From assembly GCA_023245215.1 (NCBI GenBank), contig JAHFKS010000006.1:2004-42020 (forward strand): a stretch of 40,017 bases of DNA, written 5' to 3'. Made by a program: the position numbers and the translations under genes. The notes beneath the pieces are model-generated. The model was not told the DNA's origin and did not search any database. It saw only the letters and a list, made by a program, of their open reading frames with translations. The stretch is from Candidatus Microgenomates bacterium. GTDB lineage: Bacteria; Patescibacteriota; Microgenomatia; UBA1406; GWC2-37-13. Below, one piece after another: positions 2,437-14,398 of the stretch (the stretch's first letter is position 1; every line of letters starts with the position of its first letter).

Positions 2437-3123
2437 ATGAGAGTATCGGTTGTTGTCCCGACATATAACGAAGAAAAGAATATCGGAAGATGTCTCGACA
2501 GCTTAATCAACCAGGAGGAAAAAGCAGACGAAATAATTGTCGTTGATAACAACTGTATCGACAAAACCGTCGAAATCGTCAAAAAATACCAGGGTGTTAG
2601 AATTATCAAAGAAAAAAAACAAGGAATCGCCCACGCCAGAAATGCGGGCTTTAACAATGCAACTAGTGAAATTTTGGCGCGCTGCGACGCCGATGCCATC
2701 ATGCCTCCGGACTGGATAAAAAAATTAAAAAGAGATTTTAAGGAAAAAAAGGAAATAGTCGCCGTTGCTCCTTTTTTTTACATTTTCGACATGCCTTCGG
2801 TCAGCAAATCCAAGCTGCCAGGAAAAGCTTTTTATGCAATTTCCAAATTAATCCTGAGAACCCCTTCTCTTGTTGGTCCCTCGATGGCGATAAGAAAATC
2901 TGCCTGGGAAAAAGTCAAAGATAAGGTCTGCGTCGACGACGACCGGGTCCACGAAGACATCGATTTGTCAATTCACATATCAAGATATGGTGAAATCTAT
3001 CAGGATGAATCTATTATTTTTAAACTGTCGGGCCGGAGAATAAAATTCAACCCGTTGTCTTTTTTTGTCGAATACCCTTGGATATTGGTAAGAATGCTTT
3101 ATTCACATCGCCATCTTTATTAA
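2437..3123 (+). CDS. Family 2 glycosyltransferase (228 aa)
   Basis: GT-A fold transferase starting MRVSVVVPTYNEEKNIG. Motifs are IIVVDNNCID, KQGIAHARNAGF, the DXD-like CDADA (D84, D86) and VHEDIDLSIHI. It is small for GT2 and has no obvious C-terminal membrane helices, so it is probably cytoplasmic or peripheral. The sugar and acceptor are unknown. The ATG at 2437 is preferred over upstream in-frame ATGs because TATAAT ends 6 nt before it and those upstream codons would lie in the promoter. Its 3' end overlaps the convergent DNA ligase gene by 21 bp. Confidence 0.85.
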   Translation: MRVSVVVPTYNEEKNIGRCLDSLINQEEKADEIIVVDNNCIDKTVEIVKKYQGVRIIKEKKQGIAHARNAGFNNATSEILARCDADAIMPPDWIKKLKRDFKEKKEIVAVAPFFYIFDMPSVSKSKLPGKAFYAISKLILRTPSLVGPSMAIRKSAWEKVKDKVCVDDDRVHEDIDLSIHISRYGEIYQDESIIFKLSGRRIKFNPLSFFVEYPWILVRMLYSHRHLY

Positions 3124-4818
3124 TTCCGTCAAAGTAGTCGTTTCCTGGGAATTTTTGTCGTCTCTGAATCTTTCCAGCCTGGGAAACCTTAATGCCAAAC
3201 CGGCGGTATGGACTGGCGATTTGGTTATTTCATCAGCCCGGATCTCAACGACTATTTTCGGCTCCACCCAAACATCGCATTCCATCATTTTATCAACAGA
3301 ATAATTTGCCGGTTTATTTTTGACTTTTGACTTTTGACTTTTAACTTGAATCTCCTTCCATTCTTCGTCCGTTAGTCCAGTGCCTATTTTAGCAACTGTG
3401 ACAAACCTGTCTTTTTCGTTGTCATAAACTCCGGCTAAAAATGCACCGATTCCGAATCCAGCCCTCTTTCCCTTTCCCAAGTCATAGCCCATCACTAGAC
3501 AATCGATTGTGTCATTTATCTTTGCCGAATAGCTTCTTTTATACTTTATCCAGTTCCATTCACGCGCTCCCGGTTTATAAACGCCGTCTATTTTTTTGGC
3601 AATCACGCCTTCCAAGCCCTTTTTGACCGCCTGATCAAATAGTTTTTCCAGTCTGTCCTCCTGACTAACTTCTTCCTCGTCGGCAATAACTACAGTATCT
3701 TTTGACAGATCCCTTGTAGTTATGATCGATCTTTCCAGGGCTTTTCTTCTTTCAATAAAAGGCCTATTGATAAAACTCTCACCATCAAGATACAATAACT
3801 CGAATGAAAATAATCTTAACGGTATTTCTTTTGCCATTTTTTCGATTTCATACTTCCTTTTTCTCTGAACTGTCTCCTGAAACGGCAAAAGATCCTTAGT
3901 CTGCGGATTATAACCAATCGCCTCGCCTTCAAGGATAATTTCTTTTGCCTTAATCTGCTTTTTCGCTCCGTCTGCAATGTCCGGATACATATAAGTTACA
4001 TCTTCTAAGCTTCGTGAATAGAGTTTTACGCCGTCATTTTTTTTGTGGACCTGCAGACGAAAACCGTCAAACTTGGGTTCAACCAGGCATTTGCCAATCT
4101 GCTTTAGAATCTCGCTTGCCGACGACAGTCTTTCCGCCCTCATCATGATAATTGGGGTAAAGACTTTTGGCCCGATTTTGTTTAAAGATTCTATCCCCTT
4201 TTCTTTTATCAACCGGCCGATATAACCGAGTTCCGGCCTGACGTGATAAGCTTTTTCAATCATCGGCCTCAGGCTTTTGTCGCCCTTGAGCATCCACGAA
4301 TAGGCATCCAAAACAGTCATATCGGAAAAACCCATCCTGATGTTGCCGGTGGGCAGGCGCACCAAAAACCGCGAAGATAAAAAATCCAGCTGACGGAGAA
4401 GCTGGGCTAACAAACTTATTTTGGCTTCCTGACTCCCGGGACCCGACGAAGTAGCCAGCCGATAAAACATTTCGTAAGCGCCGGTTATTTCCATGTCTTT
4501 TTCTTCAAAAGAAGTATATTGTTTTTTAAAATATTCGACAGTCTCACCCAAATCGCCGGTTTTCTTCAACTCTTTTTCGAAAAAACTTTTCTCAATATTA
4601 AGGGCCGATACGGCTGCCTTGACAATCATTTTTTCCGCCATGCCGAAATCTATCCCTTCATATGCCGGTCTGACCCTCCCTTGAAGAAGATAGACGACTT
4701 TTTCAATTTCTTCCGGGGATAGTTTTTTAAAAAGCTCTGCCAAAATTCTGGTTATTTCAAGACGGGACGAAACCTGGCTGATTTTGTCGAAGTAAATTGC
4801 TAATTGTGAGAATTTCAT
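3103..4818 (-). CDS. lig: ATP-dependent DNA ligase, archaeal/eukaryal LIG1 type
   Basis: 571 residues, the length usual for archaeal ATP-dependent ligases. The N-terminal helical DNA-binding domain covers about 1-200. The nucleotidyltransferase domain has motif I EPKFDGFRL (the lysine to be adenylated is about residue 249), ILEGEAIGY, LFSFELLYLDG, EGVIAKK and WIKYKRSY. A C-terminal OB-fold ends with AGLALRFPRLERFRDDK. It seals nicks in replication and repair. The ATG at 4818, 1 nt after the Fic stop, is preferred over an in-frame ATG at 4833, which would overlap Fic. The OB-fold holds a low-complexity insert, VKSQKSKVKNK, encoded by a heptamer repeat. Whether a second NAD-dependent ligase exists elsewhere cannot be seen. 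Confidence 0.93.
   Translation of the reverse strand: MKFSQLAIYFDKISQVSSRLEITRILAELFKKLSPEEIEKVVYLLQGRVRPAYEGIDFGMAEKMIVKAAVSALNIEKSFFEKELKKTGDLGETVEYFKKQYTSFEEKDMEITGAYEMFYRLATSSGPGSQEAKISLLAQLLRQLDFLSSRFLVRLPTGNIRMGFSDMTVLDAYSWMLKGDKSLRPMIEKAYHVRPELGYIGRLIKEKGIESLNKIGPKVFTPIIMMRAERLSSASEILKQIGKCLVEPKFDGFRLQVHKKNDGVKLYSRSLEDVTYMYPDIADGAKKQIKAKEIILEGEAIGYNPQTKDLLPFQETVQRKRKYEIEKMAKEIPLRLFSFELLYLDGESFINRPFIERRKALERSIITTRDLSKDTVVIADEEEVSQEDRLEKLFDQAVKKGLEGVIAKKIDGVYKPGAREWNWIKYKRSYSAKINDTIDCLVMGYDLGKGKRAGFGIGAFLAGVYDNEKDRFVTVAKIGTGLTDEEWKEIQVKSQKSKVKNKPANYSVDKMMECDVWVEPKIVVEIRADEITKSPVHTAGLALRFPRLERFRDDKNSQETTTLTELIKMAM
3318..3345. repeat. Heptanucleotide tandem repeat inside the ligase gene
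   Basis: The unit TTTTGAC occurs three times exactly (3318-3324, 3325-3331, 3332-3338), and a fourth unit TTTTAAC has one change. On the coding strand it gives a Lys/Ser/Gln/Val-rich stretch in the OB-fold. Because 7 is not a multiple of 3, gain or loss of one unit would shift the frame. Confidence 0.85.
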
Positions 4819-4819
4819 A

Positions 4820-5860
4820 TTAAACCATAACATAACGGGCCGCTTTAGTGCTTCCCACTTTCTTAATTAACCCTTTCTTAATCAAATCCTGCAAATCCCT
4901 CAATACTGTATCTTCGGAAACTTGCGGGAAAACATCTTTGAATATCTGGTTTTGGATATAACCGACTTCCTGAAGATATTCAACGAGCTTCATCTGTCTC
5001 TCTGTCAGGTAAATCTGTTGTCCTCCGAATTTTTCCTTTAATTTGACGTCTTTTGACAATTTCAGGATTTTTTCCTTGATTTTTTCAAACTCGACTGCCG
5101 CGCCGAAGGTAAAATATTCCAACCAGCTAGTGAGATCTCCGGCCGAAGCTTTTTGAAGGTTGTGATAATAAGTCACCGCGTCCTTGTCATAATATTCTTC
5201 GAGGGAAAAAAAGCGCCTTATATCATATCCACCCAAAAGTAGTATTAAAGTCGCCAAAAGCCTGGCTACTCTGCCATTGCCGTCGATAAAAGGATGAATC
5301 CTAACTAGTTCGTGGTGGGCGATACCTGCTTTTAAAACGGGATGCAGACGGTCGCGGTCGTCCCGATTAAGCCAATAGACGAACTCCCTCATCAAAAAAG
5401 GCACTTCCAATGGCGGCGGCGGGCGAAAAGTCACTTCGCCTGTTGAAGAATTCCTGATGATAACTTGTTTCGTCCGATACTCTCCCTGGTCGGCCAAGAG
5501 AATTTTATCGGTAATGGTCCGGTGCAGTTTTTTTATTAACAATTCTGTGATTTTATCAATCCTCCGGTTTGCTTCCTCGTCGATAAAGTCAATTACTTTA
5601 CGGTAATTGATGATTTCCTGGATGTCCCTCGGCCGGCCTATGACCTGGCGGCCTTCGAGAATGTCTTTGGCGTCGTCTTTGTGAAGTGGATTGCCCTCGA
5701 TATGAGTCCCGTGATATGCCGATCGGATAATGGCGTCTTCCTTAAACTGCTTTTCCCATAAAGGAAGCAGTGGTGAATGTTTTATGACTTCCTCGGAGGC
5801 TTCAATTTTGGCAATATTGTTTAATGTTTTGTTGGTAATGTTAAAAGAAGGATTGAACAT
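4820..5860 (-). CDS. Fic-family protein (AMP transferase-like) with C-terminal winged helix
   Basis: 346 residues. The catalytic loop HPFIDGNGRVAR (His about 189) matches the active Fic pattern HxFx(D/E)GNGRxxR, so nucleotide transfer from ATP to a protein hydroxyl is predicted. Near the N-terminus GTHIEGN (about 52-57) resembles the inhibitory helix motif with its Glu, suggesting autoinhibition (class II). The last 60 or so residues (LTERQMKLVEYLQ, then VSEDTVLRDLQDLIKKGLI) form a winged helix, as in Fic proteins that bind DNA. The start at 5860 is chosen because TATAAT lies 7 nt upstream; the ATG at 5878 would be upstream of that promoter. It is followed after 1 nt by the DNA ligase gene. 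The target is unknown. Confidence 0.88.
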   Translation of the reverse strand: MFNPSFNITNKTLNNIAKIEASEEVIKHSPLLPLWEKQFKEDAIIRSAYHGTHIEGNPLHKDDAKDILEGRQVIGRPRDIQEIINYRKVIDFIDEEANRRIDKITELLIKKLHRTITDKILLADQGEYRTKQVIIRNSSTGEVTFRPPPPLEVPFLMREFVYWLNRDDRDRLHPVLKAGIAHHELVRIHPFIDGNGRVARLLATLILLLGGYDIRRFFSLEEYYDKDAVTYYHNLQKASAGDLTSWLEYFTFGAAVEFEKIKEKILKLSKDVKLKEKFGGQQIYLTERQMKLVEYLQEVGYIQNQIFKDVFPQVSEDTVLRDLQDLIKKGLIKKVGSTKAARYVMV

Positions 5861-5867
5861 GCTAATA

Positions 5868-5873
5868 ATTATA
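5868..5873 (-). promoter_or_regulatory. -10 element of the Fic-ligase operon
   Basis: TATAAT on the minus strand, ending 7 nt before the ATG at 5860. This predicts a leaderless transcript and fixes the start codon. No convincing -35. Confidence 0.65.
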
Positions 5874-5890
5874 GCCAAAAAATATATTTA

Positions 5891-5919
5891 TTGCATAATT
5901 AACGCAGTTAGATTACACT
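5891..5919 (+). promoter_or_regulatory. Promoter of the VirB2-like gene pair
   Basis: TTGCAT (5891-5896), a 17-bp spacer and TACACT (5914-5919). Six bases then lead to the ATG at 5926, again predicting a leaderless mRNA. The -10 is a weak match. Confidence 0.5.
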
Positions 5920-5925
5920 TTTATC

Positions 5926-6216
5926 ATGATTTATGCCCTTGATATTGAAACCAAATTTGCCCCGGCTAAAATTTCCTCAATCGGCACGCTTTTGAAAATC
6001 GTCCTCCCTTTGACAATGACCGGAGCAGCGCTTATTTTTTTGACGATGACTCTTTACGGCGCTTTCCGTTACCTGACAAGCGGCGACAATCCCGAAGCCC
6101 TGAAAAAAGCCCAGTCGACAATAATGTTTGCAATAATCGGTTTATTTATAGTCATTGTCAGTTTTGTTATCGTTCAAGTTATTGGTAAACTATTAAATAT
6201 TAACCAGTTTATTTAA
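5926..6216 (+). CDS. Small two-helix membrane protein, VirB2/TrbC pilin-like
   Basis: 96 residues with two hydrophobic helices: about 22-46 (IVLPLTMTGAALIFLTMTLYGAF) and about 69-88 (FAIIGLFIVIVSFVIVQVIG). The polar loop between them, LTSGDNPEALKKAQSTI, is typical of VirB2/TrbC-like proteins, as in type IV secretion pilins. No cleavable signal peptide is clear. It lies 2 nt before a paralogue with the same plan. No VirB4, VirB6 or coupling protein is in the window. The pair may instead be stand-alone envelope proteins, which are common in CPR genomes. Function not established. Confidence 0.65.
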   Translation: MIYALDIETKFAPAKISSIGTLLKIVLPLTMTGAALIFLTMTLYGAFRYLTSGDNPEALKKAQSTIMFAIIGLFIVIVSFVIVQVIGKLLNINQFI

Positions 6217-6218
6217 AT

Positions 6219-6596
6219 ATGAAGTTTTTAGCGGCTAACGACATTCCCGGACTGTTTGGCACAGTTGAACCTCCACAGGGAATGAACTTCGGCGGCAGCG
6301 ACCCGGTCTCCGGCTTTGGCAAATTTATCGCCTTTGGGATAAATCTTTTTGTCGTCGTCGCAGGAATGTTTTTGCTGATTTATATGATGTGGGGAGCTTT
6401 TGATTGGATAATCTCTGGTGGAGAAAAAGAAAGGATTCAAAAAGCCCAAAGCAAAATCACCAATGCCCTTATCGGAATAATTCTTGTTTTTGCAGTCATA
6501 GTAGTCTTTAATGTCTTTGCCGGAAACATTTTGAAAATCATCAAGCCTTCAGAGGATGGTAGTGGCTGGCAGCTTGTCCTTCCGGTCTTGAAGTGA
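6219..6596 (+). CDS. VirB2/TrbC-like membrane protein, paralogue of its neighbour
   Basis: 125 residues. After a short N-terminal part (NDIPGLFGTVEPPQG) come two hydrophobic helices, about 38-62 and 80-102, joined by ISGGEKERIQKAQSKITNAL. This matches the loop of the preceding protein (SGDNPEALKKAQST), so the two are likely paralogues. An extra polar C-terminal tail of about 20 residues ends in VLPVLK. The start is 2 nt after the previous stop, so the genes are co-transcribed. Its last 48 bp overlap the convergent isopentenyl phosphate kinase gene, the longest coding overlap in the window. Confidence 0.65.
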   Translation: MKFLAANDIPGLFGTVEPPQGMNFGGSDPVSGFGKFIAFGINLFVVVAGMFLLIYMMWGAFDWIISGGEKERIQKAQSKITNALIGIILVFAVIVVFNVFAGNILKIIKPSEDGSGWQLVLPVLK

Positions 6597-7319
6597 ACCA
6601 ACAATGGTTCCGTTGATTATGTCAGCCTTAATTCCTTTATCCGCCAATCTCAAACACTGCTCTACTTTATATCTCATTCCTCCGGAAACATCTACTCCTT
6701 TCCCTTTGAAAAATACTTTATTTGTTTGAGAAAAATTATTTCTGTTAATTTTGGGGATTGTCTTTCCTTTTTCGTCTATGACGCCGTTGGTAGTGCCGGC
6801 AAATATAACTCGCTTTATTTTGTAGCCTTTTTTTTTGAAGTAAATTGCCGAATCGGCTAAAAACCTATCCATGGACAAAACAGAAACTCCTTTAAACTTA
6901 TCAGTAACGAGGTCCGCGTGAAAAACAGGGATAATATTTTTCTTTAATAAAGAAATTATATAACTACTTGACAATGAAGCCATTTCTCCATTATCGTATT
7001 TTGCCACTTTATCCGGTTCAACCGAAACCGCTTCTAACCCGATTACCTTTAATGAAGAAACAACAATACCATTTATTTCTTTGACAGCCTTTTTTATTTC
7101 CAGCAGACCTTTTTCCAGATTATTTTTATACTTGGCGGCAACCGGGTGGCCATATCCTCCAGCGCCGGTAAAGATGAGTAAAGACAAATCTTTATTTTTT
7201 TCAAGGAGTTCCTTTATTTCTAAGGAAATTTTTTTGATAATAGGGAGCCTCGCTTTATTAACTTTTGTTTTGTCTGTAATCAACGATCCTCCCAGCTTAA
7301 TGAAAGCCAGCTTTTTCAT
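6549..7319 (-). CDS. Isopentenyl phosphate kinase (archaeal type)
   Basis: 256 residues of the amino-acid kinase fold. Seen: the N-terminal KLGGSLITDK (K8), GAGGYGHPVA with the His (about 58) that marks isopentenyl phosphate kinases, SMDRFLADSA, FAGTTNGVID, and DVSGGMRYKVEQCL near the C-terminus. The enzyme phosphorylates isopentenyl phosphate to isopentenyl diphosphate, as in the alternative mevalonate route of archaea. No other isoprenoid gene is in the window. An ATG at 7328 overlaps the -10 box, so the ATG at 7319, 7 nt after TATAAT, is chosen. Another amino-acid kinase such as fosfomycin kinase is a less likely alternative. Confidence 0.8.
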   Translation of the reverse strand: MKKLAFIKLGGSLITDKTKVNKARLPIIKKISLEIKELLEKNKDLSLLIFTGAGGYGHPVAAKYKNNLEKGLLEIKKAVKEINGIVVSSLKVIGLEAVSVEPDKVAKYDNGEMASLSSSYIISLLKKNIIPVFHADLVTDKFKGVSVLSMDRFLADSAIYFKKKGYKIKRVIFAGTTNGVIDEKGKTIPKINRNNFSQTNKVFFKGKGVDVSGGMRYKVEQCLRLADKGIKADIINGTIVGSLQDRKDKLPATTIL

Positions 7320-7326
7320 GCCAATC

Positions 7327-7332
7327 ATTATA
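7327..7332 (-). promoter_or_regulatory. -10 element of the isopentenyl phosphate kinase gene
   Basis: TATAAT on the minus strand, 7 nt before the ATG at 7319. It overlaps an upstream in-frame ATG, which argues against that codon being the start. No clear -35. Confidence 0.65.
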
Positions 7333-7342
7333 CTATCTTGGC

Positions 7343-7370
7343 CAAAAAAATACCCCGGCGTCCCGGGGCA
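7343..7370 (-). terminator. Rho-independent terminator of the Cys-rich protein gene
   Basis: Perfect stem CCCCGG/CCGGGG (7353-7358 with 7363-7368) around the loop CGTC. On the minus strand it is followed by seven T (7350-7344). The plus strand has a shorter T run (CATTTTTA), so it may work in both directions. Confidence 0.85.
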
Positions 7371-7402
7371 TTTTTATAACACTTGATTAGTCAAAAAATA
7401 GA

Positions 7403-8338
7403 TTATTGACACGCCGAACCTGCTTTATATGTGGTTACACAATAATTTCCTGCTCGTCCTTTAGAGCTCTTACTATAATTACCATCATATACAAAACAAG
7501 TTAGAGTTCCATTTACATCAGTGCCTAAATTTTGATACATGGTTCCTTTTTTAGCTAGACAGTCATTCCTAACTTGCGTCCAATCAACAGCCGATGTTGC
7601 TCCGTTACCTGCACAAACTGAATTGTCTGTCTCATAACCAAGAACACAGGTTCCATTTGATCTTTTTACTCCTGTTTCATATTGACATGTACCATCAACA
7701 TATACTTTAACTACTTTGTTAGCTGTACATGTTGCACTAGCTGTTGCTCCACCTAGAGGCTGTCCTACGGCCGGTGTACAAGCCGATGAGTCATATGAAA
7801 TCGCCAGAGCACACGTATTGTTTGATTTCACAACGCCTGTATTATATCGGCACCAAGAACTGTCAAGGGCTTTATTGGCAATTACATTAGCTGTACATGT
7901 TGCTCCTGTCACATTAGTCGCACAGGTAGGATCTTTTCGTGCATAATTTGGACTTAAACATTTCAAGGAATTATTTTGAGGCCACCCGGATAGAGTCTTG
8001 AAACAAACTCCTACTCCGACAGAAAAATTACCAGATTTACAACCTGTTGATGGGGTAGCGGCTATATTACAAGAACCGTCTGTTGGTTTTTTCAAATGGC
8101 CACTTACACACTTGTAAGATGTTTGCCATTCTGTAACATAATCTTTAGCACATCCGGCTTCAGGAATCGTGTAGTTGACTCCTTTATATAGATACGAACA
8201 ATCACCGGCTGCTTTGGGGGTACCACCAAGATTTTGGGTATTGGCATAGTTCATCACCCAAAAAGCGCCGACAACTGCTACGACTAAAAGAACTAAGTAA
8301 GTTAGGGTCTTATTGAAACAAATTTTGTTGTCTTTCAT
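7403..8338 (-). CDS. Cysteine-rich, membrane-anchored surface protein (311 aa)
   Basis: Not recognised as a named family. An N-terminal anchor or signal helix (LTYLVLLVVAVVGAFWVM, about 12-29) precedes about 280 exported residues with 20 cysteines, an even number that fits disulfide bonding outside the cell. Two internal repeats are visible in the pattern TCTAN...C.Y.TGV..SN.TC.L....D.S.C (about residues 147-187 and 203-242). The start at 8338 is set by GAGGGGGTG about 7 nt upstream, the only strong Shine-Dalgarno in the window. An in-frame ATG at 8371 lies in a palindrome upstream. It has its own promoter, a 52-nt leader and a terminator. Adhesion, protection and host-contact roles are all possible. 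Confidence 0.7.
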   Translation of the reverse strand: MKDNKICFNKTLTYLVLLVVAVVGAFWVMNYANTQNLGGTPKAAGDCSYLYKGVNYTIPEAGCAKDYVTEWQTSYKCVSGHLKKPTDGSCNIAATPSTGCKSGNFSVGVGVCFKTLSGWPQNNSLKCLSPNYARKDPTCATNVTGATCTANVIANKALDSSWCRYNTGVVKSNNTCALAISYDSSACTPAVGQPLGGATASATCTANKVVKVYVDGTCQYETGVKRSNGTCVLGYETDNSVCAGNGATSAVDWTQVRNDCLAKKGTMYQNLGTDVNGTLTCFVYDGNYSKSSKGRAGNYCVTTYKAGSACQ

Positions 8339-8343
8339 ATTTT

Positions 8344-8355
8344 CACCCCCTCTCC
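8344..8355 (-). promoter_or_regulatory. Strong Shine-Dalgarno of the Cys-rich protein gene
   Basis: GGAGAGGGGGTG on the minus strand ends 5 nt before the ATG at 8338. Unlike most genes here, this one is clearly translated from a leadered mRNA. Confidence 0.8.
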
Positions 8356-8357
8356 TA

Positions 8358-8377
8358 TAATAATTGATCAATTATTA
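8358..8377. promoter_or_regulatory. Perfect 20-bp palindrome in the 5' leader
   Basis: TAATAATTGATCAATTATTA is fully self-complementary. It lies between the predicted transcription start (near 8390) and the Shine-Dalgarno of the Cys-rich protein gene. It could be an operator for a dimeric repressor or an RNA hairpin that affects translation. Confidence 0.7.
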
Positions 8378-8396
8378 ACGATAGTACTTAATCTTA

Positions 8397-8426
8397 AATG
8401 TAGCTGAAAACATGAGGATTTGTCAA
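8397..8426 (-). promoter_or_regulatory. Promoter of the Cys-rich protein gene
   Basis: On the minus strand TTGACA (8426-8421), an 18-bp spacer and TACATT (8402-8397). The start site is predicted near 8390, giving a leader of about 52 nt. Confidence 0.65.
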
Positions 8427-8429
8427 GTG

Positions 8430-10166
8430 TTACTCGACTTTGTAGATCTTGCTGCCCGCCAAAACATATATAGCATCCTGGAAAACAATCAGATCACTGC
8501 CCTTGGAGAGGATTTCCGAATTGACCTGTTCGATATATTCGCCGGTTTTACCGAGAACATAGACTGTTCCGCGGCTCTTATCCCAAAGGTAGATTTTTTC
8601 CAGGTCGCGCGAGGTGTAAACCTTGTTGAAAACTGGTTTGTCGTCGGGGAGGTCGACTTTGAAGCCGTCGCGGAGGCCGGACGTATATTTGACGATGATC
8701 GAATCTCCGGAAAGATACAGCGATCCGTCGATGGCTAAAGAAGAAACTCCGGAAAGGTCGATAGACTGACCGCTGGCAAAATAAGAGCTTTTGCTTCCGT
8801 ATTCGCTCTCCCCACGCGGATATTTCCAGACTTCGTCTTTGCCTTTATCCAGCAAGTAAGCATTGCCATTGTATATATACATATCAACAATCTCGCCCCA
8901 TTCCTTGTCATTGTCGATAATTTTCTTGGATTTCCCATCGCTCCCTACCCGGTAGACGCCGCTTCCTTTGGCAAAGAAAAAGCTTTCACTCTCAAAACCA
9001 GCAACCAGATTGGCCGACTTGATTTCTGACAGCTGATTTTTATCCAAAGATTTTTTTTCTAAAGACAACTGGTAGACAACGCCTCTTTTTTTGTCTAAGA
9101 TAAAGGCTGTTTTTCCGTCGAGATAGATTTTGTCGCCGCCGGCGTTTTTGTCGTCAACCGAAAGGTCAAAAAATTCGCTGTATTTCCTCATTTCTTTTTT
9201 CAAAATCTTGTTTTCTGTTTCCTTGACCATTGCTTCCAGCTCTGTGACTTCTTTCCTCTTGCCGACGTCTTTATTCAATTTGGCAACAACGTCTTTGCTT
9301 TCTGAAATCAAAACCAGAGCCCGGCTCATATTCAGAAAAGCTACATCTTGTGCCGTCGACAGCTTTTGCGTCACTAGTTCTTTTGCCAGCTTTATTTTAT
9401 TCATGGCGCCGGCGCTCGTTCTCCTCTGGTAGCCCAGGACCACGCTCCACAAAAGAATTATAAAGAGAATAAAAACCGTGATAAAAGTCAGGGTCTTTTG
9501 CCGGCCGATTGAGGCAAGATACTGCCGAAAAGAAACCAATCTGTCTTTCCAGGAAAAAACCGGCATCTCGTCAGATTCTGATGGTAAACCAACTGTCGTT
9601 TCATCATAAACCTGCAACAAATTCACAAAAAGCGCCACTGCCCCCTGGTCCTGCTTTGCCTTTAGAGAAGGCGTAATTTCATCAATAATTTCAGTCGGGC
9701 TGCGGTGGTCAAAAGTTTCTTCCAATCCCTGCCTTCCCGAAATCAAATTGAGAAAATTTTCCGTGACAAAAATGAAAAAATCCCCGTCATCGACAGGGCC
9801 GGAAGCGGTCGAGTCGTTTTCAATCAACAACCCGAGCTTGCCTTTTCTCCTGATATAAATTTCTCCGCTGCCGCTTGTTTTTAAATACAAAATGCTGCCT
9901 TTGAGATAAGCCGATGACAGGGAAAAACCGGTTGGCAGGTTTTTTTCCTTGATGACAGAAATAATGAAGTTTTCTAGAGCCGACAAACTGTCAATTTGGG
10001 CTGCCCGGATTTTTTCTTTGACAAAGTCCAGAACTTTATGGCCGGCTTCCTCGCTCATCCCTGAGGGCACTTCCAGCAAAAAAAACAGGTTATCCTGGGA
10101 AACGATTCCCGAGTAACCGCCGGTTTTTTGTTCTCCTAGATAAAACGCTACGTCAGGTTTAAACAT
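8430..10166 (-). CDS. Receptor-like membrane protein: degenerate PP2C domain, one TM helix, beta-propeller-like domain
   Basis: 578 residues in three parts. Residues 1-185 resemble a PP2C phosphatase in layout (AYLKGSILYLKTSGSGEIYIR, DDGDFFIFVTENF and QDQGAVALFVN replace the usual GDSR, GD..ll.TDG and DD.T blocks), but the metal-binding aspartates of the DG motifs are absent. One membrane helix spans about 225-246. A helical, coiled-coil-like stretch (about 255-328) follows, then about 250 residues of repeated short beta segments (KIYLDGKTAFILD, GNAYLLDKGKDEVWKY, GSLYLSGDSIIVKY, DAIYVLAGSKIYKV) that look like a beta-propeller. This suggests an outside sensor joined to an inactive cytoplasmic domain. 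It is the third gene of an operon. Fold calls are by eye. Confidence 0.55.
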   Translation of the reverse strand: MFKPDVAFYLGEQKTGGYSGIVSQDNLFFLLEVPSGMSEEAGHKVLDFVKEKIRAAQIDSLSALENFIISVIKEKNLPTGFSLSSAYLKGSILYLKTSGSGEIYIRRKGKLGLLIENDSTASGPVDDGDFFIFVTENFLNLISGRQGLEETFDHRSPTEIIDEITPSLKAKQDQGAVALFVNLLQVYDETTVGLPSESDEMPVFSWKDRLVSFRQYLASIGRQKTLTFITVFILFIILLWSVVLGYQRRTSAGAMNKIKLAKELVTQKLSTAQDVAFLNMSRALVLISESKDVVAKLNKDVGKRKEVTELEAMVKETENKILKKEMRKYSEFFDLSVDDKNAGGDKIYLDGKTAFILDKKRGVVYQLSLEKKSLDKNQLSEIKSANLVAGFESESFFFAKGSGVYRVGSDGKSKKIIDNDKEWGEIVDMYIYNGNAYLLDKGKDEVWKYPRGESEYGSKSSYFASGQSIDLSGVSSLAIDGSLYLSGDSIIVKYTSGLRDGFKVDLPDDKPVFNKVYTSRDLEKIYLWDKSRGTVYVLGKTGEYIEQVNSEILSKGSDLIVFQDAIYVLAGSKIYKVE

Positions 10167-10170
10167 AATT

Positions 10171-10410
10171 TCAAACTAAAAACAATGAAAAGATCAAAAG
10201 AATCAACGCTACAGCAATCTGCAAAGAACTGACAAAAGAAATTACGTACTGAAATTTATCCTCCAGAGTTCTGTTCATAATGCTGACCTGTTTGGATATA
10301 ACAATGGCGTAAAGCAGATAAAGAATCGCCAATAATACAGCCGACACTTTAAAAAACTCGTCCACCACTTTGAGCGAATTGAATAGATTCAAAAAACCGT
10401 TAAGTTCCAT
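10171..10410 (-). CDS. Small two-helix membrane protein (79 aa)
   Basis: Function unknown. Two hydrophobic helices, about 22-38 (VSAVLLAILYLLYAIVI) and about 57-79 (ISFVSSLQIAVALILLIFSLFLV), are joined by the polar loop SKQVSIMNRTLEDKF. The protein ends right after the second helix. It overlaps the upstream PH-domain gene by 11 bp and is followed 4 nt later by the PP2C/propeller gene, so all three are probably co-translated. Similar small two-helix proteins are common in CPR genomes; I cannot assign a family with certainty. Confidence 0.65.
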   Translation of the reverse strand: MELNGFLNLFNSLKVVDEFFKVSAVLLAILYLLYAIVISKQVSIMNRTLEDKFQYVISFVSSLQIAVALILLIFSLFLV

Positions 10411-10954
10411 GTCTTTTGCTCAATAACTTATTGATACTTTCTATTACCTTTGAAGGGAAAGGAATGTCGGCAAATTCGACATTGGCCTCGGTGCCGGCGG
10501 TCTGGACAAAGACGGTCCCAAAGTCGAATAGTGATTCAAAATATCCGCCGCTTTTGACGGTAATGTCTTCAATCTTATCGAGACGGGCTGTCGTCACCTC
10601 TTTATATAAAATGCTGTGAAAATCAACGTCTATAACACGCTTGTTTGTCACAATTCCCACATTGAAAAACCAGTTCAAAAAACTAAACCAAATAAAGCTA
10701 AAAATAAAAACAAACATAAAACTATTGAAGACAAAAATTTGGCTTACTGACAAAAAAGAAGGCAGAATAAAATTAAGACTAAAAATAACAATTAAAAGAA
10801 TAATGGAGCTAATCACCCAATGCAGCTGGGTAAAAGGATGGGCGCGGAGGAGCAAAAGAATCTTCTCCCCGGACTCGTAAGTCTCAAATTTTATCTGGGG
10901 ATAAACGCAGTAGGAAAATAAAACCCGGTTCTCTGATTTTGGATTGTTTTCCAT
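10400..10954 (-). CDS. Membrane protein with bacterial PH (DUF304/bPH2-like) domain
   Basis: 184 residues. After a polar start come two membrane helices, about 44-65 (HWVISSIILLIVIFSLNFIL) and 72-98. A bPH2-type domain follows: GIVTNKRVIDVDFHSILYKEVTTARLDKIEDITV, then GTVFVQTAGTEANVEFADIP. The pattern TNKRVI.......i..l.ki.di is typical of YdbT/DUF304 proteins, whose exact role is unknown. It is the first gene of a three-gene membrane operon. The start at 10954 lies 8 nt after TATAAT (10968-10963). This promoter overlaps the divergent 5S rRNA promoter. Confidence 0.75.
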   Translation of the reverse strand: MENNPKSENRVLFSYCVYPQIKFETYESGEKILLLLRAHPFTQLHWVISSIILLIVIFSLNFILPSFLSVSQIFVFNSFMFVFIFSFIWFSFLNWFFNVGIVTNKRVIDVDFHSILYKEVTTARLDKIEDITVKSGGYFESLFDFGTVFVQTAGTEANVEFADIPFPSKVIESINKLLSKRHGT

Positions 10955-10972
10955 CTAACATTATTATATACT
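10944..10972. promoter_or_regulatory. Overlapping divergent promoters for 5S rRNA and the PH-domain operon
   Basis: Plus strand: TTGTTT (10944-10949), a 17-bp spacer and TATACT (10967-10972), with the 5S RNA beginning 8 nt later. Minus strand: TATAAT (10968-10963) for the gene starting at 10954. The two -10 boxes share bases, so the promoters should compete. Confidence 0.6.
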
Positions 10973-10980
10973 ATATAACT

Positions 10981-11101
10981 GCCCTGGTTATTGAAGCGAC
11001 TTGGTACCACCCTTTTCCATCCCGAACAAGGAAGTGAAACGAGTCAGCGCCGATGATACTGACCCGCTTAGCGGGTAGGGAAAGTAGGTCGTAGCCAGGG
11101 C
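10981..11101 (+). rRNA. rrf: 5S ribosomal RNA
   Basis: About 121 nt. The terminal helix pairs GCCCTGG at the start with CCAGGGC at the end. Conserved internal blocks are seen: CCCGAACAAGGAAGTGAAAC (loop B/helix III region), CAGCGCCGATGATACTG, the hairpin ACCCGCTTAGCGGGT, and GGGAAAGTAGGTCG. No 16S or 23S is in the window, so this is a stand-alone copy. A T run (11102-11108) directly after the terminal stem probably ends transcription. Confidence 0.93.
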
Positions 11102-11110
11102 TTTTTTTAT
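11088..11110 (+). terminator. Probable 5S rRNA transcription end
   Basis: The 3' side of the 5S terminal stem is followed at once by CTTTTTTTATTT. The stem plus T run, together with the inner GC-rich hairpin at 11072-11086, could act as an intrinsic terminator. It runs into the stop codon of the convergent 11107 gene. Confidence 0.5.
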
Positions 11111-11538
11111 TTAAAGTCTTCTTTCTTGCAGGTTTTATAGATTGCTTCCAAGTCAACCTTCTTGCCCAAATACTGGCTGGCCATTGATTCAAGAGTAGAA
11201 ATATTGTTGTTGAGCATACCTCCGACCAACGGTACGTATGAGGAAAGGTCATATTTTACTATCTGGCCGCCGGCTTTTACTTCCAAAGAAACTTTTTTGT
11301 TTTTGACAAACAGGTCATATTCCTGGTTGTTGTTTTTATAATGACAAACCAAAGGACCATTAAGATCAATGTTTAGTTTCTTGGAGACTAGCGGCGACGG
11401 CTTCAGCGTCGGTGTGAGAATACTATTCTTTACAGGCAGAGGCTGGTTTTGGTTGAATTTTATTATCAAAGACGAAACAATGATGATGATGGGAAGAATA
11501 ATTATTCCTTTGGAGACAGTTGAAAAAAAGTCGTCCAT
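11107..11538 (-). CDS. Hypothetical single-pass membrane protein (143 aa)
   Basis: Not recognised. One N-terminal membrane helix (GIIILPIIIIVSSLII, about 11-26) is followed by a Pro/Ser/Thr-rich linker (PLPVKNSILTPTLKPSPL) and an exported globular part of about 90 residues with two cysteines (in LVCHYKNN and YKTCKKED) that could form a disulfide. It contains QEYDLFVKNKKVSLEVKAGGQ, suggesting short beta strands. The upstream DUF2130 stop codon is 1 nt before its ATG, so the two are probably one operon. It ends against the 5S terminator. Confidence 0.65.
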   Translation of the reverse strand: MDDFFSTVSKGIIILPIIIIVSSLIIKFNQNQPLPVKNSILTPTLKPSPLVSKKLNIDLNGPLVCHYKNNNQEYDLFVKNKKVSLEVKAGGQIVKYDLSSYVPLVGGMLNNNISTLESMASQYLGKKVDLEAIYKTCKKEDFK

Positions 11539-11539
11539 A

Positions 11540-12655
11540 TTATTCGCCTGATTGTAATTTTTTTGCTTCCGGAGGACCGACGAGGGATTTTCCGGTAATT
11601 GCCTTTACGTCGCCGTCCATACCCGAAATGCTGTCTATCACCTGGCGGATATTTTTTTCCTGTTTGGCCCACTTTTTGGTAAACCAGCGTTTTTCTATTT
11701 CCATTTCTTCTTGCATCTGGCTGTAAACGTCGGCAATTGCATCCATCCTGTTTTTGAATTCAATCCCGGTCAGATAGTTCCAAAGAATTTCTTTTTTATC
11801 CTGTTTATTTGTTTCTGATAGTCTGACAACGGCAATTCTCAATAAGGAATCTCTCAATAAAGTTGCCAACCCAAGGATGGAATCATAGTTGCTTATCCAG
11901 ACTTCGTTTTTGTTGGCAAAATTCTTTATTCCGTCAGGCAAAACCTGGCTGACAATGACGGCTAAATCAGCGTTAACCATCCGCTTGTCCTGTTTTAATT
12001 TATTGATCCAACCGTCACTCCACGCTTTAGTTCTTTTTGATTCCCAAACAATCGACCCGACTATCTTTCCAAAATTATTCTTAACAATCTGTTGGATGTC
12101 GGCGCCGGTAATGCCTTTGGGTACTTCTTTGATTTCGTCATAAGGAAACTCTCTTCTTAAAATATTTTCTATTTCCAATTCCAGAACTTCCCCCTGGGTC
12201 TGCTGCGACCCTTGCTGCATTTTCCTCTTAAGTTCTTCTATTTGCTTCAAGTAATCGCCTTCTTTTTTTTGGTGTTCCAAGTTTTTCAAGCGGTTTTCCT
12301 CCAGAGCTTTTTTATAAGATTCATCGCTGATCTTTTTCCTTTCTTCGTCGAGTCGTCTTTGCGCTTTTAGCTCGATTTCTTTTTTTTCTTCTTCGAGCTT
12401 GGCTTTTTCTTTCCTAATTTCCATTTCGTTTTTTATAAACTGTTCTTCTTTTTTATTTTTTTCTTCCAGCTGCTCCTTGAGAAGTTTTATTTCCTGGAAG
12501 GACTGTTCGTTTTTCCTGGATTCGGCAGCCGCCAAAGCTTTTTTCCACATTTCCGGTTTTTGCTCGCGTTCGAACTTTTCCCTAACCTGGTGTATGAAGG
12601 CTTCTGTGGCGGGAAAAGTCTTGTGACAATGGGGACATTCAATGAGATCGTTCAT
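11540..12655 (-). CDS. DUF2130 protein, coiled coil plus PD-(D/E)XK nuclease-like domain
   Basis: 371 residues. The N-terminus CPHCHKTF (C7, C10) is half a zinc-ribbon motif. Residues about 25-150 are a long charged coiled coil. The C-terminal domain (about 155-340) is DUF2130: LELEIENILRREFPYDEIKEV, then KGITGADIQQIV and GSIVWESKRTKAW. The GAD (D186) and WESK (E205, K207) residues fit a PD-(D/E)XK nuclease core, which I infer makes it a candidate nuclease like the coiled-coil RmuC proteins. No phage genes are near. The start lies 7 nt after an extended -10 (TGCTATAAT), so the mRNA is probably leaderless. Confidence 0.82.
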   Translation of the reverse strand: MNDLIECPHCHKTFPATEAFIHQVREKFEREQKPEMWKKALAAAESRKNEQSFQEIKLLKEQLEEKNKKEEQFIKNEMEIRKEKAKLEEEKKEIELKAQRRLDEERKKISDESYKKALEENRLKNLEHQKKEGDYLKQIEELKRKMQQGSQQTQGEVLELEIENILRREFPYDEIKEVPKGITGADIQQIVKNNFGKIVGSIVWESKRTKAWSDGWINKLKQDKRMVNADLAVIVSQVLPDGIKNFANKNEVWISNYDSILGLATLLRDSLLRIAVVRLSETNKQDKKEILWNYLTGIEFKNRMDAIADVYSQMQEEMEIEKRWFTKKWAKQEKNIRQVIDSISGMDGDVKAITGKSLVGPPEAKKLQSGE

Positions 12656-12662
12656 AACGAGA

Positions 12663-12671
12663 ATTATAGCA
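12663..12671 (-). promoter_or_regulatory. Extended -10 promoter of the DUF2130 gene
   Basis: TGCTATAAT on the minus strand matches the extended -10 form TGnTATAAT. It ends 7 nt before the ATG at 12655. No -35 is evident, as expected for extended -10 promoters. Confidence 0.7.
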
Positions 12672-12748
12672 AATGTAGAGATATTAAAATCCTTACAATT
12701 GAAAAAACTATGGTATTATAATTAACTTATACTAAAATGGTAATAGCT

Positions 12749-13048
12749 ATGACTAAAATCAAAATCGCCGATTTGGAAATGGATGTCAAAACCAAAGAGG
12801 TAAAAAGGGCCGGAAAACCTATTAACTTGACGCCAAAAGAATACGACCTCCTCCATTATTTGATGTTAAATGCTAACCAAGTTGTATCACGTAAAACAAT
12901 CTTAAATAAAATCTGGAGGTATTCTCCCGAGATTGAATCTCGGGTAGTTGACGTCTACGTCGGATACCTCAGGAAAAAAATCGATTTCAAGAACAGGAAA
13001 AAACTCATCCGCTCCATCCGCAGCTTCGGCTACTCCATCAAGAAATAG
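12749..13048 (+). CDS. Stand-alone OmpR-type winged-helix DNA-binding protein
   Basis: 99 residues from the ATG at 12749 (103 from the ATG at 12737). The whole protein is a Trans_reg_C winged helix: LTPKEYDLLHYLMLNANQ, VVSRKTILNKIW, SRVVDVYVGYLRKKID as the recognition helix, and SIRSFGYSIKK as the wing. There is no receiver domain and no histidine kinase beside it, so it cannot be switched by ordinary phosphorelay on its own. Possible -10 boxes are TATAAT at 12717-12722 and TATACT at 12728-12733; the start depends on which is used. It is divergent from DUF2130 and may regulate it. Confidence 0.82.
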   Translation: MTKIKIADLEMDVKTKEVKRAGKPINLTPKEYDLLHYLMLNANQVVSRKTILNKIWRYSPEIESRVVDVYVGYLRKKIDFKNRKKLIRSIRSFGYSIKK

Positions 13049-13081
13049 CTTCTTTTTTTGGTAAAATATATATGTATTTTT

Positions 13082-13152
13082 TGGGAGATCGTCCAATGGT
13101 AGGACAACAGACTTTGGATCTGTTTATCTAGGTCCGACTCCTAGTCTCCCAG
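13082..13152 (+). tRNA. tRNA-Gln (anticodon TTG)
   Basis: Acceptor arms TGGGAGA (13082-13088) and TCTCCCA (13145-13151) pair over 7 bp. The D stem is GTCC/GGAC. The anticodon stem ACAGA/TCTGT holds loop CTTTGGA with TTG at 13114-13116. The T stem is CTAGG/CCTAG with loop TCCGACT. The first base is T, as usual in bacterial tRNA-Gln. The 3' CCA is not encoded; the discriminator base is G13152. Confidence 0.95.
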
Positions 13153-13163
13153 CAAGATTGGAC
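13151..13163 (+). repeat. Left copy of a 13-bp direct repeat at the tRNA-Gln 3' end
   Basis: AGCAAGATTGGAC starts at the last paired base of the tRNA and recurs exactly at 15560-15572. GTCTC precedes both copies, with two extra C in this one. Together they bracket an AT-richer gene block and may be attachment-like sites. Chance is possible for a match this short. Confidence 0.4.
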
Positions 13164-13171
13164 ACTTAATT

Positions 13172-13498
13172 ATGAATAAGTTAATTAAACTTTTGTTAAT
13201 TGTTTGTCTCGTCCTTATCGCTATCATTTTAGCAAAAAATCTATTTACTGAAAAAATAATATGGGAGTTCGTAGGATATCAATATAGATGGAATGAAAAT
13301 TATGTGGCAAATTCTAGTTTAGCGACGCAGCAAGAATGTGTTTCTTACGGGAATGAGTGGTTAAAGGGACAGAATTCTTCTGACGCTCTTTTTACCTGTT
13401 CAACTGGATGCAGAGATGCTGGGTTTGGAAACAGTATGGAAGTTTGTAATTTAATTTGCGAATATGAAAAAACTGGACTTGTAAAATGTCGAAAATAG
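13172..13498 (+). CDS. Small Cys-rich anchored or secreted protein (108 aa)
   Basis: Not recognised. A hydrophobic N-terminal helix (LIKLLLIVCLVLIAIILA, about 4-21) acts as signal or anchor. The exported part carries six cysteines (56, 76, 80, 92, 96, 106), which suits three disulfides. Base use is AT-richer than in flanking housekeeping genes. It begins 19 nt after tRNA-Gln with no clear promoter of its own, so it may be read through from the tRNA. Confidence 0.65.
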   Translation: MNKLIKLLLIVCLVLIAIILAKNLFTEKIIWEFVGYQYRWNENYVANSSLATQQECVSYGNEWLKGQNSSDALFTCSTGCRDAGFGNSMEVCNLICEYEKTGLVKCRK

Positions 13499-13522
13499 AG
13501 AATATCCAATTTAAATGATTCT

Positions 13523-13798
13523 ATGGTAACACACGACAAAGAATTTAAGACTGATTTAACAAAGCTTTCAGATGAAGAATTGCAAAAACGGAGATTAAGA
13601 TTTGTTGGTGGTCTATTTGATGGTGAAAAAGGAAGTAGAGATAATGTCGAAAAAGAGTCTCTTATACAAGAGATAGACATTGAAAGAGAAATGCGTTTAA
13701 AGAAAAACACAGAGAGAAGAAGTAATATTGCATTGTTAATCTCAGTGGTTTCACTTTTTATATCGATTATCGCTTTAATTATAAAATATTGGTTATAA
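13523..13798 (+). CDS. Hypothetical tail-anchored membrane protein (91 aa)
   Basis: Not recognised. The first 67 residues are charged and helical (LSDEELQKRRLRFVGGLFDGEKGS, then a stretch rich in Glu/Lys/Arg). One C-terminal membrane helix follows, about 69-89 (IALLISVVSLFISIIALIIKYWL). The topology suggests a cytoplasmic helical domain tethered to the membrane. AT-rich like its neighbours in the block behind tRNA-Gln. No clear promoter or ribosome-binding site. Confidence 0.6.
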   Translation: MVTHDKEFKTDLTKLSDEELQKRRLRFVGGLFDGEKGSRDNVEKESLIQEIDIEREMRLKKNTERRSNIALLISVVSLFISIIALIIKYWL

Positions 13799-13807
13799 GA
13801 ATAAGTA

Positions 13808-13833
13808 GGGCCTAGACCGACACGCTCAGCAAA
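13808..13833 (+). repeat. 26-bp direct repeat, copy 1
   Basis: Shares 23 of 26 bases with 14433-14458, including the exact core CTAGACCGACACG; all three differences are transitions. It sits between a stop codon and the RDD gene start, 25 nt before the ATG. Confidence 0.8.
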
Positions 13834-13858
13834 CTCAAAAATTTATTTCAAAAATATA

Positions 13859-14398
13859 ATGAAAAAAATAATTGATTTTTTAAATAGAGACTTAATTAAA
13901 TTTGACGTGAATTCAAACAGTAAAATAATTAAGGGTAGAGAAAAATATTCTGGATTTTTTAGACGTTTTGGAGCTACAATGGTTGATCTCGTTTTGTTCT
14001 CAGTACTAATTATTACAATGGTCAAATTTCGCTTTGCAACTTTTTCTAATTCTTTTTTTCCTTCGCTATTGTTGATCTACCCGCTTTATGGCGCTATTTT
14101 TTTAAAGATTTACGGAATGACTTTAGGAAAATACGTATTTGGTATTAAATTACGAGGGGAAAATAATATAAAAATAAATTTTTTCACTTTAATAATTCGT
14201 GAATATATATTAAAACCAATATCAATAATTCCTCTAGGTTTTGGAATAGTGAGAATGTTTTTTGATCCCCATAAACAAACATATTATGATAAAAAAATAA
14301 AAACGGAAGTCGTGATATGGAGAAATGACTGGATTAACAGTTTATTCATATTTGCTGCTATTTTCGGACTAGTCTTCGAGATTATGGGTTATTTTTAA
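13859..14398 (+). CDS. RDD-family membrane protein (179 aa)
   Basis: RDD domain: FFRRFGATMVDLVLFSVLI gives the Arg and first Asp in and before the first membrane helix, GMTLGKYVFGIKL is the typical central motif, and YYDKKIKTEVV replaces the usual DxxAxT end. Four hydrophobic helices are visible, the last (SLFIFAAIFGLVFEIMGYF) outside the core domain. RDD proteins are poorly understood; some are proposed to transport ions or solutes. It lies between two copies of a 26-bp repeat and is AT-rich, so the unit repeat-gene may have moved as a block. Confidence 0.75.
   Translation: MKKIIDFLNRDLIKFDVNSNSKIIKGREKYSGFFRRFGATMVDLVLFSVLIITMVKFRFATFSNSFFPSLLLIYPLYGAIFLKIYGMTLGKYVFGIKLRGENNIKINFFTLIIREYILKPISIIPLGFGIVRMFFDPHKQTYYDKKIKTEVVIWRNDWINSLFIFAAIFGLVFEIMGYF

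Follow-up and report, generated by a model that had tools for sequence, protein, structure and literature searches.

We suggest that the largest of three tightly packed genes in a Candidatus Microgenomates genome encodes a member of a new protein family, best filed among the membrane-anchored PP2C proteins, in which the catalytic motifs are lost and a six-bladed beta-propeller makes up the putative outer part. The genes were analysed in a stretch of 40,017 nucleotides, called the window here, and all positions are those of the window unless another locus is named. The large protein was detected throughout most of the phylum Patescibacteria, and we tentatively propose, at a level of confidence slightly short of even, that it acts in the cell envelope as a non-catalytic, bitopic scaffold.

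The trio occupies the minus strand from 10954 to 8430, in the order bacterial PH (bPH) protein, DUF5657 protein, pseudo-PP2C/propeller protein:

10400..10954, minus strand: gene 1, putative bacterial PH-domain membrane protein of 184 aa (PF03703 match at E=0.004, below the curated cut-off), with two hydrophobic helices around residues 40-95 and, at its C-terminal end, a bPH_2-like domain around residues 100-175
10171..10410, minus strand: gene 2, DUF5657 protein (PF18901, E=2.3e-14), 79 aa, two membrane helices
8430..10166, minus strand: gene 3, pseudo-PP2C/propeller membrane protein, 578 aa (open reading frame, model, Foldseek, profiles)

Genes 1 and 2 overlap by 11 bp (10400-10410) and a gap of 4 bp (10167-10170) separates genes 2 and 3, so the gene coordinates bear out the tight packing noted in the preliminary description. 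Both operon partners of the large protein had been called small membrane proteins there, which agrees with their lengths and with the two helices found in each. The gene 2 product belongs to DUF5657 (53.7 bits against PF18901, above the curated cut-off of 25). The match of the gene 1 product to bPH_2 (PF03703) is weak (17.7 bits, cut-off 22); 35 homologues were aligned for it, with a mean column identity of 43%. In YdbS/YdbT-type bacterial PH proteins a bPH_2-like domain comes after two membrane helices, as it would in the gene 1 product, but the gene 1 match lies below the Pfam cut-off and the partner genes differ. The 578-aa product of gene 3 gave no convincing Pfam or NCBIfam family match, and its nearest named homologues are mostly on Roizmanbacteria contigs, which puts the genome of the window near Candidatus Roizmanbacteria within the Microgenomatia.

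The AlphaFold2 model of the large protein, built with an alignment of 37 homologues from public genome contigs, had a mean pLDDT of 89.3 and a pTM of 0.57, the latter meaning that relative domain placement is not to be read from the model. It replaced a single-sequence model, which was uninformative (pLDDT 46). The following parts were recognised in gene 3:

9612..10166, minus strand: residues 1-185, PP2C fold without catalytic motifs (compact alpha/beta at 2-185 in the model, Foldseek, hhalign, residue counts)
9498..9602, minus strand: residues 189-223, disordered linker (pLDDT <50), variable in length among homologues
9429..9491, minus strand: residues 226-246, single membrane helix (model and hydrophobicity)
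9204..9428, minus strand: residues 247-321, helical stalk (model)
8436..9197, minus strand: residues 324-577, six-bladed NHL/SGL-like beta-propeller (model, Foldseek)

In the model, the membrane segment sits in a long helix (223-276), and two more helices lie at 280-321. Foldseek comparison with solved structures detected two separate sets of matches, PP2C phosphatases and propellers, with E values of about 1e-8 to 1e-7. The first set included PppA (6jkv, E=1.4e-8), PstP (2cm1 and 1txo) and SpoIIE (5mqh), and the TMt values of 0.61-0.63 for PppA and PstP assign the N-terminal domain to the PP2C (PPM) superfamily fold. An independent profile match was obtained by hhalign against Patescibacteria PP2Cs (P=90%, E=1.5e-6), and among the relatives one matches PF13672 at E=9.7e-4 and another PF00481 at E=0.004. 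The propeller set is largely six-bladed and comprises the streptogramin B lyase family, Drp35, the NHL domains of Brat (TMt 0.65) and TRIM2, and Pizza6 (TMt 0.72); the six four-stranded blades close as a ring, as seen in both the model and the Foldseek matches, and some homologues show weak NHL, SGL and DUF5128 matches in this region. Profile searches against the sequences of solved structures gave nothing meaningful. The preliminary description had guessed from the letters alone a PP2C-shaped domain, one membrane helix, a helical stalk and a beta-propeller-like domain; helix and stalk are both present in the confident model, and the two fold guesses were right, since Foldseek and profile comparison match both folds.

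The same description held that the PP2C-like domain lacks the metal-binding aspartates, and this loss was found to extend to the whole family. Among 80 members from across the phylum, none keeps more than one of the four catalytic PP2C motifs (DGxGG, GDSR, SDG, DN), with the motif positions taken from the sequence alignment, in which single columns may be shifted. At the position taken for the first aspartate (position 32), 59/80 members have E or D; the last aspartate remains in 21/80, and the GDSR and SDG positions vary. Conserved instead are R107 (68/80), G123 (76/80) and D129 (73/80), and the best-conserved stretch of the pseudo-PP2C domain throughout the phylum is:

9780..9806, minus strand: loop A-S-G-x5-D, residues 121-129 of gene 3

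The acidic residues at positions 32 and 129 could in principle form another site, as they would if the protein were still an active phosphatase, or a hydrolase of another kind, with an unusual metal site. We regard such a hidden enzyme as very improbable, because DGxGG, GDSR and SDG are lost family-wide, the last aspartate survives in so few members, and the profile alignment pairs D129 with a PP2C aspartate that binds no metal, the one in the turn '..GD..' preceding the SDG strand. The missing Hanks-type kinase also argues against it: Ser/Thr kinases (PF00069) gave no match in the protein's own genome, nor in 44/56 relatives. PP2C_2 phosphatase (PF13672) was likewise not found in the own genome. 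The absence of both from this genome further supports a non-catalytic role of the pseudo-PP2C domain, which would be the simplest reading of the sequences, and Ser/Thr phospho-signalling as the main role was rejected on the same grounds. A very strong Ser/Thr kinase match in another genome (G046:C93:126-992) contains six in-frame TAA codons and probably comes from a contaminant that uses a different genetic code, perhaps a ciliate.

In 97/116 homologues of the large protein a single hydrophobic segment is prominent, and no signal peptide precedes the N-domain. Positive charge is slightly higher on the N-terminal than on the C-terminal flank of this segment (+3.4 vs +2.5; N higher in 64 homologues, lower in 33). 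Together, the slight charge bias and the missing signal peptide weakly suggest an N-inside orientation, that is, a bitopic protein with the pseudo-PP2C domain in the cytoplasm and the propeller outside the cell.

PstP (Ppp) of Mycobacterium tuberculosis, whose structures are among the best matches, is alike in its N-terminal PP2C fold and one membrane helix, and its C-terminal extracytoplasmic part would be a further trait shared with the large protein. PstP is, however, an active Mn-dependent phosphatase working with Ser/Thr kinases, whereas the large protein has lost the catalytic motifs, has no kinases found in its own genome, and would carry as its outer part a six-bladed propeller on a stalk. 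PppA, a regulator of the Pseudomonas aeruginosa T6SS, shares the PP2C fold but is a soluble active phosphatase without membrane helix or propeller. The six-bladed NHL/SGL propellers (Brat and TRIM2 NHL, Drp35, streptogramin B lyase) have the same fold as the C-terminal domain at about 9-16% identity, and the enzymes among them have active-site residues; no PP2C fusion to such a propeller was present among the Foldseek matches listed.

Inactive enzyme folds with other roles offer analogies. EssB/YukC of type VII secretion is a membrane pseudokinase that combines a cytoplasmic inactive enzyme fold, one helix and an outside part and has a structural role; the large protein may work in a like manner, although the fold is that of a kinase and not of PP2C, and no homology is claimed. 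PHLPP2, an animal PP2C-family pseudophosphatase (PMC12002173), and TAB1 have a PP2C fold without activity and act by binding; both are eukaryotic and of other architecture, and the likeness would lie in PP2C folds being able to lose catalysis and yet be kept. The literature searched contained no mention of DUF5657, nothing joining Patescibacteria, PP2C and propeller, and no description of a pseudo-PP2C/propeller family in the work on bacterial PP2C pseudophosphatases; the preliminary description, too, did not recognise the combination of a pseudophosphatase with an external propeller. According to a 2019 study of CPR protein families (PMC6744442), the majority of CPR-enriched families have poor annotation and many are membrane-bound, and the present family may be one of them.

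A broader profile (E<=1e-10) detected the large protein in 229/287 of the Patescibacteria genomes sampled, and in 206/255 of those of good quality; it was mostly a single, full-length copy. An earlier, first profile had found it in 225/287 genomes of the phylum, and the first search of relatives in 55/57 genomes, the own genome included (37/37 of good quality). The framing of the preliminary description as a matter of Microgenomates is thus too narrow for the large protein, which occurs phylum-wide, and holds for the order of the trio, which is conserved in the class Microgenomatia. Homologues fetched from outside the class are 507-884 aa long, many exceeding the window protein mainly through a longer linker, and no relative was found in viral contigs. 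A 3.4-kb contig labelled Omnitrophota (L152) encodes a Roizmanbacteria-like large protein with 60% identity and is probably mis-binned.

Two orthologues, L193:1480-2262(+) and L194:1501-2286(+), are reduced to the pseudo-PP2C domain and the membrane helix (260-261 aa). Their genomes are small and complete, and the short gene still lies beside rplL/rplJ, as it does in many full-length relatives. Genetic code 25 (TGA = Gly) as the cause of the short L193 orthologue was rejected, the frame still stopping right after the membrane helix. The loss of stalk and propeller in two reduced genomes, with the syntenic place kept, suggests that the inner half is useful alone.

The order bPH, DUF5657, large protein was called automatically in 35/41 loci of the class and, after a six-frame check, in 38/41, far beyond chance; another locus is truncated where its contig ends, and the remaining exceptions are L039 and L064, the genome of the latter having a DUF5657 gene about 24 kb away. 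Intergenic gaps within the trio are mostly -20 to +15 bp. Outside the class, the trio order was detected in families f26, f37, f57, f67, f73, f127 and f133, and comparison of two tables showed that all genomes with a DUF5657 match above the cut-off also carry the large protein. In a tree built from 80 large proteins, 4 changes suffice for the trio state (shuffled mean 24.9), and in one clade of 28 the large gene stands alone, near rplJ/rplL, mraZ-rsmH, argS or rnpA. Trio and solo are inherited states, and genome counts therefore overstate the independent evidence. The three genes had been taken for one unit, with conservation of their order in Microgenomates proposed as a check; the order is indeed kept there, but a large clade has the large gene without both partners nearby, and the bPH and DUF5657 proteins are thus not obligate for the large protein everywhere.

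Genes for pilins and for a SpoIID-domain protein recur in the neighbourhood, the former represented in the window by:

5926..6596, plus strand: two VirB2-like T4SS pilin genes near the trio, outside the operon (PF18895 over the cut-off; recurrent neighbours)

VirB2-like pilin genes were found within 9 kb of the large gene in 8/12 class families and in 6 families outside the class, most class genomes having five to eight such pilins. A SpoIID-domain gene occurs within 9 kb in 7/12 class families, often directly upstream of the trio. Outside the class, a pilin or SpoIID neighbour is present at 8/10 trio loci vs 1/29 solo loci, a contrast correlated with descent because trio and solo are clades.

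These neighbours could mean that the trio is part of a Patescibacteria type IV secretion-like machine, for example as a partner that helps to assemble the VirB2-like pilins at the inner membrane, while the SpoIID enzyme would open the wall. Both the recurrent pilins and the SpoIID genes that adjoin the trio in many families would fit, as would the own genome, where SpoIID lies about 6-9 kb from virB4 on contig C12, with dnaN and a dnaA-like gene between. We consider this quite improbable, because no homologue of virB4, TrsD-like genes or prgI was present near the large gene or trio within the 81 fetched loci compared. The trio is thus not encoded with virB4 and prgI, the mark of a Patescibacteria T4SS, and proximity to these genes gives no support for it as a T4SS core member; in the own genome virB4, prgI and SpoIID are on C12 and the trio is on contig C33. 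The solo clade, moreover, is without pilin or SpoIID nearby, and the published Patescibacteria T4SS survey (PMC12102498) makes no mention of the family and names no propeller, phosphatase, PH or SpoIID component. The idea that DUF5657 stands in for an absent VirB3/PrgI was rejected, since the own genome encodes PrgI separately, next to virB4. At that locus (L212:12624-16059, minus strand), virB4, a gene for 218 aa and then prgI lie together, near a dnaA-like gene and dnaN; further along are the SpoIID gene and a gene for an 816-aa secreted-looking protein.

In the scaffold that we tentatively put first, the pseudo-PP2C domain on its flexible linker would bind a protein in the cytoplasm and remove no phosphate, the single helix and helical stalk would cross the membrane, and the propeller would dock an envelope or surface component outside. 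In Microgenomatia and several other lineages, the large protein would probably join the bPH and DUF5657 proteins in a complex of about 5 membrane helices, and the gene context would point to envelope or pilus assembly. The scaffold is supported by the loss of the motifs in all 80 members while another loop stays conserved, by the confident model of the two folds, the mostly single-copy presence in 229/287 genomes and the tight trio order, and by the recurrence of SpoIID and T4SS-pilin genes as neighbours. It is weakened by a topology drawn from a weak charge bias, by neighbours correlated with descent, by the own virB4, prgI and SpoIID lying on another contig, and by the solo clade, given which the complex is not universal.

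The main rival to the scaffold is a ligand-driven receptor, as the preliminary description had proposed: the propeller would bind a ligand outside the cell, such as a host surface, a wall fragment or a nutrient, and the pseudo-PP2C domain would alter its contact with a cytoplasmic protein, giving a signal without catalysis. NHL/SGL propellers often bind ligands or proteins, and the modelled layout of outside domain, one helix and inside protein-binding fold fits such a sensor. We nevertheless find a receptor somewhat unlikely, as the trio loci have no consistently neighbouring regulator or output gene and near-universal single-copy presence suits a housekeeping role no less than a ligand-specific receptor. 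A broader form of the scaffold reading is possible, if doubtful: the large protein would be the core of a Patescibacteria-specific envelope system, a transmembrane organiser tying outside pilus- or wall-building parts to a cytoplasmic partner, with the PP2C fold made purely structural early in the phylum and kept in very reduced genomes.

Patescibacteria represent a very large part of bacterial diversity and are ultra-small and mostly uncultured, and their membrane proteins of unknown function are a main gap in explaining small-cell life, often on other cells. The family described here spans nearly the whole phylum, is mostly single copy and has a structure that can be read, so that one protein can be traced through the whole group. 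A conserved inactive PP2C where the genomes are mostly without Ser/Thr kinases would clearly illustrate how an enzyme fold becomes a connector, and our results suggest that Patescibacteria turned this fold into a non-catalytic connector across the membrane, for which the operon supplies two candidate partners, the bPH and DUF5657 proteins.

Several other genes were observed around the trio. A 5S rRNA gene (10983-11100, plus strand) lies antisense between the trio and the next upstream gene, with no 16S or 23S gene accompanying it in the scanned region 5000-14000. Upstream of the 5S gene, 11107-11538 (minus strand) encodes a small single-helix protein found at the same place in 20/41 class loci, a homologue of which gave no Pfam match. 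Directly downstream of the trio, 7403-8371 (minus strand) encodes a cysteine-rich, secreted-looking 322-aa protein without Pfam match, and its gene has no conserved position beside the trio. Further along, 3103-4833 (minus strand) encodes an ATP-dependent DNA ligase with three domains (PF04675, PF01068, PF04679), of a kind typical of archaea and viruses.
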